DNA of 64,000 bases from Deltaproteobacteria bacterium (GTDB lineage: Bacteria > Desulfobacterota > Desulfarculia > Adiutricales > Adiutricaceae), in assembly GCA_031273455.1 (NCBI GenBank), contig JAISRZ010000069.1:34579-98578 (forward strand), read 5' to 3'. A program made the translations under genes and the position numbers. Below the pieces are notes generated by a model, which saw only the letters and a list, made by a program, of their open reading frames with translations, made no database searches and was not told where the DNA came from. Position 1 is the stretch's first letter. Each line of letters begins with the position of its first letter. This document shows positions 54,684-62,045 of this stretch, piece after piece.

Positions 54684-56543
54684 ATGATTAATAAGTGGAC
54701 ATTAGCGAATTTTAAATCTGTTAAATCAGAGACAGAGCTAACTTTTGCGCCATTAACTATTTTAACAGGTCAGAATAATAGTGGAAAGAGTACTATATTG
54801 CAATCAATTTTGCTAATTAGCCAAACTCTTTCTAATAAAATAGGAAGTCCGCCCATTGTTTTAAACGGATCCTTGGCCAGGCTTGGACAGTTCTCCGATC
54901 TCCGCTCATTTGGCAGTGAGTCTGACCATATAACAATTGGCTGGGAACAAAGAGCTCAATCACTTACCGGTTTTCAAAAAAATGGCTTCTTTGATTCTAA
55001 TACTCATCAAAAACACTTTTTTACGAATAAAAATAACAATTTTACCATCAAATGTTCTCTTTCATTTGACGCCGATATCAATTGCCCAGAAAGTGATTTA
55101 TATCAGCTTCAACCACAACTTTTAGAATTTAATATGTCTCTTTATGATTCGAATACATACAATAAAAATACAATATTTAAACTTAATGTCATACGTAACA
55201 ATGACTCTACATCTAAAATCGCTAATATAGATAACAAATCGCGAATAAGTTCGAATTATGATATCAGTCTTGATCAAATTTTATTAGATGAAATTCTTGA
55301 AAATTTTATCTCCGCTGAACTTATTGGCTGCAAATTAAGACATTTTCAACCAGATAAATTTATTATTAAGATTAATTTGATAGATGAGATTGCCTATATA
55401 TTGAAAAAAGCATTAATTGGTGATTTAAGATTATCTTCTTATAATTATTTTTATGATTTTCCTATTTCAACATCTGTCATTCAGCAGTTAAAGGACACAT
55501 TACATCTAGAAAAATTTCTATGGGAGAATTTAACGAATAGACTCTTCCAAAATATAACTATTGGTAAATTAATAGACGAAATAAATAAATTATCTCATAT
55601 TAAAATACGTAATTTATACCGTTTTACATGTAAGATTGATGAATTAGATAAAATTATATTCGATATTGTCAAAAATGAATTTGAAACAAATGAATTATCA
55701 TGTCAAATAGAAGGATATTGTAGACCTCCCTTGCGTTTTAGAAAAGCTTATCATTATATTGAAGAATATTTTTCAACTTCAGTAAAATATCTTAGTCCTC
55801 TGCGGTGTGAAACAAAGCCTTTATATCCAATATTCACTCACACGGATCCAACTGACATTGGACTTAAAGGTGAAATGACAGCGGCTGTCCTTAATATTCA
55901 CCGCCAAAGAAATATACTTTATATTCCTTCAGCGTCTTTTAGTCAAACGCCCTTTGACCTAACTCCTAAATCTGGCGATCTTAATGAGGCGGTTAACGAT
56001 TGGCTGAATTATCTTGGAATCGCCAAGGCCGTTGTTAGCGTGGATAAAGGAAAATTGGGGTCTGAGCTGAAAATTTCCCTAATCAATGGCGGACCGAGTC
56101 ATGACTTAACCCAGGCGGGAGTTGGCGTTAGTCAAGCGTTGCCAATCCTGGTAATGTCTTTGCTCGCTGACAAAGAAACTACGCTCATTTTCGAGCGGCC
56201 AGAACTACATCTTCACCCAATGGTTCAAGCTAAATTGGCTGATTTCTTCCTGTCAATTGTATTTTCAGGCAAACAATGTCTTATTGAGACACATAGTGAG
56301 TATCTAATCAATAGGATTCGCTATCGAGCCGCGGCTGAAGATTCAAACAATCGTGTAATTAAAAATTTGAAACTCTACTTTGTTGAAAACACTAAAGGCT
56401 CGTCTTTTTTTCGCCAAGTTGTCGTTAACGAATACGGCGCCATTTTGGCTTGGCCTAAAGGATTCTTTGACCAAAGTCCAGACGAAGCCGAGTCAATAAT
56501 TAGCGCGGCTATCGCCAAAAGGAAGCGGCCAAGAGTTATTTAG
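54684..56543 (+). CDS. DUF3696-type AAA family (SMC/OLD-like) ATPase
   Basis: MINKWTLANFKSVKSETELTFAPLTILTGQNNSGKSTILQSILL; TLIFERPELHLHPMVQAKLADF; CLIETHSEYLINRIRYR; GFFDQSPDEAESI. Confidence 0.88.
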   Translation: MINKWTLANFKSVKSETELTFAPLTILTGQNNSGKSTILQSILLISQTLSNKIGSPPIVLNGSLARLGQFSDLRSFGSESDHITIGWEQRAQSLTGFQKNGFFDSNTHQKHFFTNKNNNFTIKCSLSFDADINCPESDLYQLQPQLLEFNMSLYDSNTYNKNTIFKLNVIRNNDSTSKIANIDNKSRISSNYDISLDQILLDEILENFISAELIGCKLRHFQPDKFIIKINLIDEIAYILKKALIGDLRLSSYNYFYDFPISTSVIQQLKDTLHLEKFLWENLTNRLFQNITIGKLIDEINKLSHIKIRNLYRFTCKIDELDKIIFDIVKNEFETNELSCQIEGYCRPPLRFRKAYHYIEEYFSTSVKYLSPLRCETKPLYPIFTHTDPTDIGLKGEMTAAVLNIHRQRNILYIPSASFSQTPFDLTPKSGDLNEAVNDWLNYLGIAKAVVSVDKGKLGSELKISLINGGPSHDLTQAGVGVSQALPILVMSLLADKETTLIFERPELHLHPMVQAKLADFFLSIVFSGKQCLIETHSEYLINRIRYRAAAEDSNNRVIKNLKLYFVENTKGSSFFRQVVVNEYGAILAWPKGFFDQSPDEAESIISAAIAKRKRPRVI

Positions 56544-57299: not shown

Positions 57300-57797
57300 A
57301 TGAGCGAAGTTGAGCCGAAAATTGACTATCCCCAGGTCTCTTCGGAAAACGATGGCAAATACCTGACTTTTCAACTGATCGATGAGGGTTACGGCATTGG
57401 CATCCTGAAGGTCCGGGAGATCATTGGCATGCTGCCAGTCACCCCGGTGCCCCAAACGCCCTCCTTTTTAAAAGGGGTCATTAACTTACGGGGCCAAGTC
57501 ATCCCGGTGGTGGATTTACGGTTAAAGTTCGGTCTGCCCGAAGAGGAGTACACCGAAAGAACCAGCATCATCGTGGTGGAGGTTAAGGGCCTGACCAATA
57601 ACATCCCCATTGGCATCGTGGTGGACACGGTCTCCGAGGTCATTAACATCCAAGCCCACGAGATCGAGCCGGCCCCGTCCTTTGGCTCGACCATTGACAT
57701 GAACTTTATCCTCGGCATGGCCAAAACCAGCGATGGGGTCAAAATCCTTTTAAACATCGATTTAGTCTTGTCCGCCGAGGAGCTGGGGGCCATGTGA
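57300..57797 (+). CDS. cheW: Chemotaxis coupling protein CheW
   Basis: YLTFQLIDEGYGIGILKVREIIGMLPVTPVPQTPSFLKGVINLRGQVIPVVDLRLKFGL. Confidence 0.95.
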   Translation: MSEVEPKIDYPQVSSENDGKYLTFQLIDEGYGIGILKVREIIGMLPVTPVPQTPSFLKGVINLRGQVIPVVDLRLKFGLPEEEYTERTSIIVVEVKGLTNNIPIGIVVDTVSEVINIQAHEIEPAPSFGSTIDMNFILGMAKTSDGVKILLNIDLVLSAEELGAM

Positions 57798-57959: not shown

Positions 57960-58682
57960 ATGCCTTTTTCCGCCACTAAAAAACTTTTTTTAACCCTCAC
58001 CGCTTGTCTATTTTTATTGGCTTGCGGTCAAAAGCACGAGTATAAACCCGTGCCCTTTCGGGCCCCGGAAGCTTACTCCAACCACATTGACACCGGCGAG
58101 GCCACCTACGCCGCCGAGTACTTTCCCGATGAGAAAGCCTTAACCGACCGCTTTGGCTATAATTTATACAAAGCCGGCGTTCTCCCCATTAACCTGGTCC
58201 TCCAAAACCACGGGGAAGACAATTTAGTCATCCTCCCTGGGCCCACGGTCACCGACTCCAAAGGCCAAATCTGGGAGCTCTTGCCCCAGGACGTGGTTTT
58301 GCAAAGGATTAACGATTACACTAGCGGCGTCACCCCAGGCGAAGGCGTCGCCCGGACGGCCAAAGGGGCGGTGGTTGGGGCCATCTTAGGGGCCGCGGTG
58401 GGCATCGCCACCGGCACCAACGTGGGCTCGGCCGCGGGCAAAGGGGCGGCCATTGGCGGGGCCATTGGGGTTAGCTCGGCCATTTTAGGCCAAGGTAAGG
58501 ACCAGTCCGGCGATATCGCCAAAGACTACACTAACCTTTCCTTGCAACAGAGCTCTTTAGGCCCCGATGAGATCGCCCACGGGCTTTTGTTCTTCCCAGC
58601 CGAGGTCGAGCGTCCGGTCCGCCTCACGCTTAGAGTGAAGATTGGTGAGGAAAAACCCAAAACCGTGGCGCTCCCACTCTAG
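57960..58682 (+). CDS. Lipoprotein with glycine-zipper segment
   Basis: Lipobox FLLACG; Gly-rich hydrophobic stretch GAVVGAILGAAVGIATGTNVGSAAGKGAAIGGAIG. Confidence 0.8.
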   Translation: MPFSATKKLFLTLTACLFLLACGQKHEYKPVPFRAPEAYSNHIDTGEATYAAEYFPDEKALTDRFGYNLYKAGVLPINLVLQNHGEDNLVILPGPTVTDSKGQIWELLPQDVVLQRINDYTSGVTPGEGVARTAKGAVVGAILGAAVGIATGTNVGSAAGKGAAIGGAIGVSSAILGQGKDQSGDIAKDYTNLSLQQSSLGPDEIAHGLLFFPAEVERPVRLTLRVKIGEEKPKTVALPL

Positions 58683-59514
58683 AGCCCGGGCGGTCGCTAG
58701 CTCGCCTTTGTCCTTAGCCGGCTTTGTTGGTCGGCGGGCCAAAATTGGTTTAAAGTTATTTTTTTATCGAACTTTTGACCAGCTAGCTTTCGCGGGGCGC
58801 TTATTATTAGCCGGCCTTTGGGGCGATGAGCGCCTTAAGGGCCGGTCTACCGCCCGTTGGAAGCTTTTTTTAACGGAAACCTGGCTCATCCTTTTAACCA
58901 CTGGGGGCCTCATAGTCCTCATGGGTCTTTTGACCGGTTTTTTATGGGACGTTATCTGGTTTGGGGTCTTAGCCAACATTGGCGGCGCGGAAAACCTGGT
59001 CGCCCTAACCTTTTCCATCCAACTCCAGGAAGTCTCCCCCATCTTAGCCACCGCGGTCATCACCATGGGCCATGGGGTGCCCATGACCGTGGATCTAGCT
59101 TTGCGGAAAGCCCATGGCGAGTTCACGACCCTCTCGTCTTTAGGGGTGGCCCCAGAGCTTTTCTTGGCCTGGCCTAGGCTAACCGCTGGGCTCATTAGCT
59201 TTCCCGTCCTTTTCTTCGCTTTAGCCGTGGCCAACCTGGTGGGGCTCTACATTGGCGTCCGGAGTTCCATCGCTTTGCCTTTGGTGGATTACATGGCTAG
59301 CGTCCACTCCAGTTTAGTGGGCTTCGCCTTTTTAAAAACCGGGGTCAAGTGTTTAATGGTCGGGTTTTGCCTCAACTTTTTCTGTTTGTACGGTAGCTTC
59401 CAGATCGCCGAGGGCGACATCCGGTCCATCCCGAGGCTAGCTCGCTGGGCCATGGTCGAGACCTTTATTTACTCGACCATTTGCGTGGTCCTCATCACGG
59501 CTTTGTATGACTAA
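58642..59514 (+). CDS. Divergent MlaE-family ABC permease
   Basis: Multi-TM with MlaE-like order (TWLILLTTGGLIVLMGLLTG...LQEVSPILATAVITMG...LGVAPELFLAWPRLTAGLISFPVLFFALAVANLVGLYIG). N-terminal start uncertain (overlaps the lipoprotein gene). Confidence 0.82.
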   Translation: MVRKNPKPWRSHSRARAVASSPLSLAGFVGRRAKIGLKLFFYRTFDQLAFAGRLLLAGLWGDERLKGRSTARWKLFLTETWLILLTTGGLIVLMGLLTGFLWDVIWFGVLANIGGAENLVALTFSIQLQEVSPILATAVITMGHGVPMTVDLALRKAHGEFTTLSSLGVAPELFLAWPRLTAGLISFPVLFFALAVANLVGLYIGVRSSIALPLVDYMASVHSSLVGFAFLKTGVKCLMVGFCLNFFCLYGSFQIAEGDIRSIPRLARWAMVETFIYSTICVVLITALYD

Positions 59515-60220
59515 CCAAACCGTTTGGGCTTTACGGTTCGTTGAGGTGGGGGTAGGGCCTTTAAAGTCCGACCTTCGCCGGCTTAACTATAAACTGCCCT
59601 TAGGGGAATGGGCCTTATGGATCGAGCCGGACCCCTTTGACGCGGCCCTTTACCGGGATCTGGCCATTGGGGCCATCGCCCCGACTTGGGGCGAGGTTTT
59701 GTGGTTTGGCCGCGGGAAACCCAAGCCCTCGGATCTCCTCGCCACCTCGCTTTTTAACCGGCGCTTGGGCTTCACCCCGAAAAACGGGCGACTCTTTTCC
59801 GGCTGTAGCTTACTGGCCAACTTACTGATCCACTATGTCCACGTGGTCGGGTTAGATGAGGCTACGGCTGAGGAGGAGGCTCGAGCCTGGCTGGAGCGAT
59901 TAAAACTGACCCGGGAGGCTCGGACCTTAGGGGAAAAAATCGGGGATAAGGCTCACTTAGCCCTTTTAGCCTTAGCCTTGGTTAAAGAGCCGGATCTATT
60001 GGTCTTGGATCGGCCCCGGAGCTTATTTGAGCGCGATTTTCCCTTAGTGCTGGACGTTCTAAAAAACGAGCGCCAAAGACGGGAGTTCGCGGCCCTCATT
60101 ATTGACGATGACTATAGCCCTTGGCGTTCCCAAGAGGGCTTACCGCGGTTCAACCTTTGGGCCAGTCCCCCTGATAATATGGAGGCGGCGGAATGCGTTA
60201 CTCCTGGTCGGAAAAAATAG
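59507..60220 (+). CDS. MlaF-like ABC ATPase homologue with degenerate catalytic motifs
   Basis: Position and collinearity with MlaF; GEWALWIEPDPFDAALYRDLAIG in the Walker A position, PDLLVLDRP in the Walker B position. Intact 237-aa ORF overlapping both neighbours. Confidence 0.72.
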   Translation: MTNQTVWALRFVEVGVGPLKSDLRRLNYKLPLGEWALWIEPDPFDAALYRDLAIGAIAPTWGEVLWFGRGKPKPSDLLATSLFNRRLGFTPKNGRLFSGCSLLANLLIHYVHVVGLDEATAEEEARAWLERLKLTREARTLGEKIGDKAHLALLALALVKEPDLLVLDRPRSLFERDFPLVLDVLKNERQRREFAALIIDDDYSPWRSQEGLPRFNLWASPPDNMEAAECVTPGRKK

Positions 60221-61095
60221 CGGGCTTTATCCTCTTACTCGGCTTCGCCTTCATCGCTTTAGCCATGGTTTTAGTCGGGGCCGGTCGGGACTGGCTCTCT
60301 AGCTACCAAAACTACTTCCTTCTCCTCCAAGATGGGCATGGGCTACTCCCGGGGGTTAAAGTTAAGTTCTTGCGCTTAGACATTGGCCGAGTCACCAACT
60401 TGGAATTGACCGACAACAACATGGTGAAGATCCATTTAACCATCCTCTCCGAGTACGCATCCAAACTAAAGGGCGATAGCTTAGCCAGCGTCTCTAGCCC
60501 GACCATCATTGGCAGCGAGTATATTGAGATTGTCCCGGGCGGCCCGGAAAGTCAGCCCATCCCCCCGGGTGGGCAAATCCCGGCCCGGGATCCCCAGACC
60601 ATTGACGACATCATCGCCTCCATCCAGATCGAGCGGAAGCTGGAGCAGTTGGACACTATCATGCGGAACGTCGTGGCCATCACCGACCGCTTAAAAGAGC
60701 CCAATGGGCCCCTTTTTGGGACCATGGAGAACTTAAAGCGGGTCACCGGCCAAGTGGCCGCTGGCGGCGGCACGGTGGGCTCTTTGGTCATGCGCGATGT
60801 GGCCCACGAGGAGTTGGTGGCCACTTTGCAGGAATTGAAAGAGGCCAGCGAAAGTATCGCCAAATCGGCCAAAGGGTTGCAAAAGGATCTACCGGTTATC
60901 ACCGCTAAGATTGAGGCCATCTTACGGCAAGTGGAGGCCGGGACTCGCTCCTTTCCCGAGGTGGCTCGAGGGGCCCGAGAAGGGGTTAGGGAAGTCGATC
61001 AAATCTTAGACTCGGTTAAACGGAATTTTCTGATCCGCGGGAACTTGTCGCCCGACACGCCCCCGGAAAGCTTAACCAGACCGGCTCGGGAATGA
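60193..61095 (+). CDS. MCE-domain (MlaD family) protein
   Basis: N-terminal TM; YFLLLQDGHGLLPGVKVKFLRLDIGRVTNLELTDNNMVKIHLTI...SSPTIIGSEYIEIVPGG, then a helical tail. Confidence 0.9.
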   Translation: MRYSWSEKIAGFILLLGFAFIALAMVLVGAGRDWLSSYQNYFLLLQDGHGLLPGVKVKFLRLDIGRVTNLELTDNNMVKIHLTILSEYASKLKGDSLASVSSPTIIGSEYIEIVPGGPESQPIPPGGQIPARDPQTIDDIIASIQIERKLEQLDTIMRNVVAITDRLKEPNGPLFGTMENLKRVTGQVAAGGGTVGSLVMRDVAHEELVATLQELKEASESIAKSAKGLQKDLPVITAKIEAILRQVEAGTRSFPEVARGAREGVREVDQILDSVKRNFLIRGNLSPDTPPESLTRPARE

Positions 61096-62045
61096 TGACC
61101 GTGGCTAAAGGCTCTATTATCGCCCGCTTAATTTTATTGGCTCTTTTGATCGGGGCGCCTTTGGCCTGTGGGGGGCCTTTACCGCCCAATGACCCCTTTA
61201 ACCTGGGGCAAGCCAAGGACAGTTTAGCTAAAGGGAACCACTGGTACCTTCGGGGGTGCCACAAAGAAGCGGCCCGGTTCTTCACTGAGGGCTTAATCTT
61301 CGCCCGGTTAGCCGATAACGCCCCTTTAATGGTCATGGCCCATAACTCTTTAGGAACCGCCCTTTTAGCCCAAGGCCAGCTAAACGCAGCGGCCAACCAA
61401 CTGGCTAAAGCCTTGGATTTAACCGAGACCTTGCCCAATAAACCGGAGCTGGATAGCGTCTTAGGCAACTTGGGGACCTTAGCCTTTAAGGCCCAAAGGC
61501 CGCTAGACGCCGCCGAGTTCTGGGAGGCGGCCTTAGTCGCCGCCCCCCCCAGCCGGAAAGCCATTTACCTGGCTAACTTAGCTCGCCTCCAGCAAAACGA
61601 TCCATCGTCCCCGAAATTTATGGAGTACGTGGCCGCGGCTAACGCCGCCGCCACTGACCAAGACACCCCTTTACCGGCTAAGGCCGACGCCTGGTCTTTA
61701 GCCGCCCTTTTGGCCTTCACCCAAGGGGATATCCCCGAGGCCAGCGAGCGCTTGGCGGCGGCCTTGGCTTTGGATCGCCAAACGGAAAACGTCTCGGGTC
61801 TAGCCCAAAACTTAGAGCTGGCCGGAAAAATCCAAATCAAGCAAGAGGCTTACCCCCAAGCGGCCCAGAGCTTTGACCGGGCCTTTTACCTTTACGCGGC
61901 TTTAGGCGAGCGGACGGCTTTAGGCCGGATCGTGGAGTTATTGAAAACCACCCACCAAAAAGGGTTTCCTAAAGATCTAAGCCCGTACCAAAAGATTCTC
62001 CATAACCCAACCAACTTCCAACCTCTAACCGACTCTTGCCCCTAA
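61092..62045 (+). CDS. TPR-repeat lipoprotein
   Basis: Signal peptide with lipobox PLACGG; TPR-like motifs (AHNSLGTALLAQGQLNAAANQLAKAL; LELAGKIQIKQEAYPQAAQSFDRAFYLY). Confidence 0.82.
   Translation: MMTVAKGSIIARLILLALLIGAPLACGGPLPPNDPFNLGQAKDSLAKGNHWYLRGCHKEAARFFTEGLIFARLADNAPLMVMAHNSLGTALLAQGQLNAAANQLAKALDLTETLPNKPELDSVLGNLGTLAFKAQRPLDAAEFWEAALVAAPPSRKAIYLANLARLQQNDPSSPKFMEYVAAANAAATDQDTPLPAKADAWSLAALLAFTQGDIPEASERLAAALALDRQTENVSGLAQNLELAGKIQIKQEAYPQAAQSFDRAFYLYAALGERTALGRIVELLKTTHQKGFPKDLSPYQKILHNPTNFQPLTDSCP

Follow-up and report, generated by a model that had tools for sequence, protein, structure and literature searches.

The window, by which we mean the whole 64,000-nt stretch analysed, comes from contig JAISRZ010000069.1 of a Deltaproteobacteria bacterium and contains an operon with the conserved order Gly-zipper lipoprotein, MlaE, MlaF-like protein (hereafter pseudo-MlaF), MlaD and TPR lipoprotein (Table 1). 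The lipoprotein status of the first and last products was judged by eye from their lipobox-like N-termini. Pfam searches identified an MlaE-family permease, which matched PF02405 at 75 bits (cut-off 22.5) versus 215–270 bits for its canonical paralogues, and an MCE domain in MlaD (PF02470, 52–55 bits, cut-off 25.1). Between them, the pseudo-MlaF ORF is uninterrupted and shares 8 nt with MlaE and 28 nt with MlaD, exactly as the initial annotation, made from the letters alone, had described. A search of the operon for direct and inverted repeats gave only weak matches, such as chance alone would produce. In most Ca. Adiutricaceae members the CheW-domain gene immediately precedes the operon, and a 619-aa ORF further upstream (window positions 54684–56543) has, by eye, the look of an AAA-type ATPase (GQNNSGKST motif).

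Table 1. Genes and former catalytic motifs of the pseudo-MlaF operon (positions in the window)
Feature	Position	Strand	Basis
CheW-domain protein	57300..57797	+	domain search, synteny
Lipoprotein-like Gly-zipper protein, lipobox LLACG, conserved upstream gene	57960..58682	+	domain search, synteny
MlaE-family permease, strongly diverged, coupling-helix motif eroded; start codon uncertain	58642..59514	+	PF02405
Pseudo-MlaF, 237 aa, ABC-ATPase fold (predicted) without nucleotide-handling motifs	59507..60220	+	searches, AlphaFold, residue scoring
Former Walker A / P-loop: EPDPFDAA, residues 40–47	59624..59647	+	alignment to canonical MlaFs
Former Q-loop: TPKNGRLF, residues 90–97	59774..59797	+	alignment to canonical MlaFs
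Former ABC signature: IGDKA, residues 145–149	59939..59953	+	alignment to canonical MlaFs
Walker B strand LLVLDRP, residues 164–170; Arg169 at catalytic Glu site	59996..60016	+	alignment
Former H-loop: DDD (within IIDDD), residues 200–202	60104..60112	+	alignment to canonical MlaFs
MlaD-like MCE protein, 300 aa: one MCE domain + long C-terminal region	60193..61095	+	PF02470
TPR-repeat protein, lipobox-like N-terminus (LACG), conserved operon partner	61092..62045	+	domain search, synteny

Sequence searches, profile searches and structure prediction all place pseudo-MlaF among the ABC nucleotide-binding domains, with MlaF as the best match of the single sequence and of the predicted fold. A single-sequence phmmer search returned MlaF as the best PDB match (E 8.5e-5), and a profile built from the family matched 333 PDB sequences at E<=1e-3, the 60 that were listed all being ABC ATPases. 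The AlphaFold model adopts an ABC fold with high confidence (pLDDT 90.0, pTM 0.85), and its top Foldseek match was E. coli MlaF (6xgz, E 3.3e-15, TM 0.75/0.69). The possibility that the protein is not an ABC protein at all was thus rejected. Pfam ABC_tran scores pseudo-MlaF at 16 bits against a curated cut-off of 25, so that the protein would go unnamed in ordinary annotation; just 8 of 33 Ca. Adiutricaceae pseudo-MlaFs match this model at E<=0.01.

Alignment to canonical MlaFs bore out every motif replacement that had been proposed by eye (EPDPFDAA, TPKNGRLF, IGDKA, LDRP and DDD), and at the seven scored catalytic positions pseudo-MlaF agrees with the canonical proteins only at the Walker B Asp. 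Judged by these residues, none of Walker A, Q-loop, signature, catalytic Glu and H-loop is usable in this protein. In E. coli, the K47A and E170Q variants of MlaF fail to complement the loss of mlaF (PMC7367683), so ATP-driven transport should fail once these residues are gone; by analogy, an MlaF without the equivalents of K47 and E170 is not expected to drive transport. The operon thus retains the MlaE-family permease and the MCE protein of an MlaEFD-type MCE system and, by its sequence, no working ABC ATPase, and we therefore treat it as a variant rather than a standard Mla system.

Searches for MlaD orthologues recovered them from 38 to 40 of 63 genomes of the class, two weaker matches (1e-37 and below) being less certain, and others were detected elsewhere in the phylum. 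The ABC proteins adjoining these orthologues were extracted and seven catalytic residues were scored over 78 proteins, which divided into 9 canonical (7/7), 11 partial and 58 dead. All 33 Ca. Adiutricaceae orthologues examined were dead, many further families of the phylum also had dead proteins, and no orthologue of the family or class carried intact motifs. A pseudogene confined to a single genome was rejected, as every orthologue is dead and dN/dS is below 1. None of the 58 dead proteins keeps the full catalytic set: the catalytic Glu is absent from all of them and gives way to Arg in 35. Three (G037, G206 and G295) still have the Walker Lys and five have a His where the H-loop residue lies, in each case without the rest. 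The 11 partial proteins (L132-L139, L143, L144, L149) all retain the Walker Lys, the Ser/Thr and the Q-loop Gln, and none has the H-loop His or an SGG signature, a pattern that would be compatible with ATP binding without turnover. One contig labelled Planctomycetota (L190, 3625-7267) shows the order MlaE, ABC, MlaD, TPR, with an ABC protein that by eye has no motifs; the case for spread beyond the phylum consists of this one MAG contig, which could be misbinned. The window genome belongs to Thermodesulfobacteriota, and its close relatives are presumably termite-gut MAGs, going by isolate names and by Ca. Adiutrix. The endosymbiont Ca. Adiutrix intracellularis (G023), placed by NCBI in Ca. Adiutricaceae, Desulfarculia, the same family as the window genome, also carries an orthologous MlaD.

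The history of the loss was read from a quick IQ-TREE phylogeny of MlaE (78 rows). Canonical systems fall outside a 69-row clade (SH-aLRT 99). Within it, four rows at the base are dead, 8 rows form a single partial clade, and the other 57 form a clade (SH-aLRT 99) in which every system is dead or ABC-less; the Ca. Adiutricaceae MlaE proteins sit on a long branch (2.33). From this topology, a single event of complete loss probably accounts for the large clade, and an independent one for the basal four. Alignments and tree together demonstrate that the dead state is old and common to a clade spanning many families. With the partial clade placed as sister, the series from intact through partial to dead compares relatives and is not a proven ancestor-descendant order.

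The MlaE coupling motif followed a different course in different families. In dead families outside Adiutricaceae the coupling residues are kept in 83–97% of rows (R97 97%, R111 83%, E119 93%, M123 97%, E128 97%), whereas in Adiutricaceae they are eroded, with R111 not conserved, E119 at 56% and M123 at 38%; catalysis therefore appears to have been lost before the coupling motif. Moreover, in some genomes the ABC gene itself could not be located. Ca. Adiutrix intracellularis carries MlaE and MlaD-TPR at separate loci (L179 5989-7924; L201 1829-2641), and in its 91%-complete genome the best match to the pseudo-MlaF profile reached 73 bits, no more than ordinary ABC proteins score, so that the gene was not found, although at this completeness a missing contig is possible; its near relatives keep the gene, and with the same profile one of them, G026, gave a dead ABC at 221 bits. 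Three genomes of one genus of family f56 (G266, G137 and G435, the first a single contig) likewise have MlaE without an adjoining ABC gene. Since the dead ABCs of their sister genomes score just 69–82 bits with the profile used, a distant dead ABC may lie elsewhere in these three. At the three loci (L204, L209, L210), an intact-looking MlaE coupling region is followed by a ParB-like gene and, in two of them, by a thioredoxin-like (DUF255-type) gene, as seen by eye. MlaD-TPR loci without MlaE or ABC in 7 genomes of 2 families were discarded as further cases, because MlaE and a dead ABC were present at a second locus, and systems without an ABC beside MlaE are thus just a minority. In any case, outright loss of the ABC gene appears to have happened repeatedly, and the gene would therefore not always be needed.

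If the local ATPase is dead, the diverged MlaE could be energised by a canonical MlaF encoded elsewhere, with pseudo-MlaF only occupying the site, assembling the complex or regulating it, much as in mycobacteria one MceG serves several Mce systems. We regard this as unlikely, even though candidate donors are at hand. The window genome (G000, 94% complete) encodes three MlaE and three MCE proteins, and the search for a canonical mlaFED elsewhere in it, suggested with the initial annotation, retrieved a second and a third set, both with canonical MlaF: C3, comprising MlaE-MlaF-MlaD, and C67, comprising STAS-MlaE, MlaF and an MCE protein (L081, L216). At least one canonical-type MlaE is present in 27 of the 27 family genomes scanned, nearly all of which also have one diverged copy. 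No match to MlaA or MlaC (PF04333, PF05494) was obtained in G000, whose sets therefore do not amount to the six-component Mla system of E. coli; with MCE proteins and no such match, its two canonical MlaEF sets resemble the minimal MlaEFD type. In dead families outside Adiutricaceae, the intact coupling residues make borrowing of a canonical MlaF possible, and the three genomes that have these residues in MlaE and no adjoining ABC gene point the same way. Against it, the coupling helix of Adiutricaceae MlaE is unrecognisable and offers no discernible docking motif, which argues against canonical MlaF docking there, and the local pseudo-MlaF has been retained.

The retention of the gene was examined through dN/dS, calculated by NG86 for pairs within close groups. 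Values for the dead gene were 0.20–0.32 in family f22, 0.14–0.34 in family f55 and, within the window's family, 0.19–0.50 in genus g10 and 0.59–0.73 in genus g7, with dS saturated in the window's own genus so that values there are weak; MlaD in the f22, f55, g10 and g7 groups gave 0.04–0.28. The ratio was below 1 in every scorable pair, and this demonstrates, at the level of sequence, purifying selection on the pseudo-MlaF gene, as had been argued from its intact reading frame. The constraint is nevertheless loose, as follows from the g7 values and from faster divergence: between G000 and G004 the dead MlaF is 44% identical versus 74% for canonical MlaF, and its divergence is about twice that of the canonical MlaF of the same genomes. 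Several features have become fixed in spite of this. Arg occupies the catalytic Glu site in 26 of 33 Ca. Adiutricaceae pseudo-MlaFs, Phe stands at E. coli position 180 in 31 of 33 (Ser in canonical proteins), and Tyr at position 112 is nearly fixed (31 of 33; mixed Phe/Tyr in canonical proteins). We read these newly fixed residues, set against the looser constraint, as selection for a structural role.

The fast evolution, the sub-threshold Pfam scores of most members, the g7 ratios and the outright loss in Ca. Adiutrix intracellularis, apparently repeated in the separate three-genome clade, could also be expected if the ABC gene were a slowly decaying relic under relaxed selection, with function resting on MlaE, MlaD and the lipoproteins alone. 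We consider this improbable, as a relic would not keep its reading frame open across distances from family to phylum level and the ORFs are intact in tens of genomes of many families, with dN/dS well below 1 outside g7, clade-specific residues fixed and the 8-nt MlaE/pseudo-MlaF overlap kept at 23 of 34 loci. That pseudo-MlaF is the degenerate half of a heterodimer with a canonical nucleotide-binding domain (NBD), an arrangement with one degenerate site that is common among ABC exporters (PMC7756269), is very improbable, because with Walker A and signature both lost neither composite site could be complete, and the operon has no second NBD gene.

The reading that we prefer, and hold to be somewhat probable, is that this MCE system is not driven by its own ATPase and keeps the pseudo-ABC protein as a structural subunit. 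Motif loss, orthologues, dN/dS and predicted fold all support the catalytically dead pseudo-enzyme of the initial annotation, and each of the outcomes that it had named as refuting (intact motifs in orthologues, dN/dS near 1, no predicted ABC fold) was looked for, with results in its favour. The operon would encode an MCE lipid-transport complex of MlaE, the MlaF-like protein, MlaD and lipoproteins in which the pseudo-ATPase is retained; assuming that docking occurs as in canonical complexes, a pseudo-MlaF dimer would sit beneath MlaE as a structural or assembly subunit. Lipid may then pass through an MlaE-MlaD conduit without ATP hydrolysis by pseudo-MlaF, either passively along a gradient or by means of another power source. 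Any of the three mechanisms originally put forward, namely scaffold, passive transport and borrowed ATPase, may apply. Borrowing is disfavoured in Adiutricaceae by the coupling erosion in MlaE, while the intact coupling motifs of the other families would allow it there.

A broader and more tentative proposal, which we judge possible but rather less than even in probability, is that a whole MlaE-type MCE lineage has turned into an ATP-independent lipid conduit. Its motor would have died in the ancestor of the phylum-wide clade and then served as a structural subunit without catalysis, acquiring new fixed residues, until some descendants dropped it and retained MlaE and MlaD-TPR. The need of MCE systems for ATP and the direction in which they move lipid are open questions, and here catalysis has been lost from an MlaFED-like machine. 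With intact, partly lost, fully lost and absent genes, the lineage offers a natural comparison for roles of MlaF beyond ATP hydrolysis. MCE surveys in which MlaF is tallied from synteny and domain names may mistake such dead subunits for motors. Among the open-access papers searched, none described a dead MlaF or an ATPase-dead MCE operon.

We compared the operon with known systems. Like E. coli MlaFEDB, it combines an MlaE-family permease, an ABC-fold MlaF homologue and an MCE-domain MlaD; unlike it, pseudo-MlaF has lost the catalytic residues and aligns with the C-terminal extension of E. coli MlaF at about 1 of 25 positions, the genome has no MlaA or MlaC match, and the operon adds a long extra MlaD region and two lipoprotein-like partners. 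The three-gene core without MlaA/MlaC and the long MlaD recall the minimal MlaEFD of Veillonella parvula, whose elongated MlaD is proposed to bridge the envelope and whose MlaF is close to those of model diderms (PMC10665443), whereas this operon has a dead MlaF, a TPR lipoprotein-like gene after MlaD and, in Adiutricaceae, a diverged MlaE. As in the degenerate-site ABC exporters TAP, Pdr5 and TM287/288, an NBD that lost catalytic residues has been kept by selection, but those proteins retain one competent dimer site, whereas the sole NBD of this operon is dead at every motif. Finally, PqiABC and LetAB of E. coli are examples of MCE systems that have no ATPase subunit (PMC10897342, PMC12436622), and for PqiABC the authors consider transport that is passive, driven by an unidentified ATPase or driven by PMF (PMC10897342). 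The present operon resembles them in having no competent ATPase, but it differs in that the inner-membrane partner belongs to the MlaE family and not to PqiA/LetA, so that the MlaE-MlaF framework is kept with the ATPase dead in place. If the MlaE lineage is indeed ATP-independent, it would be convergent with PqiABC/LetAB, and the MlaE/MlaD path would carry lipid without MlaF catalysis.
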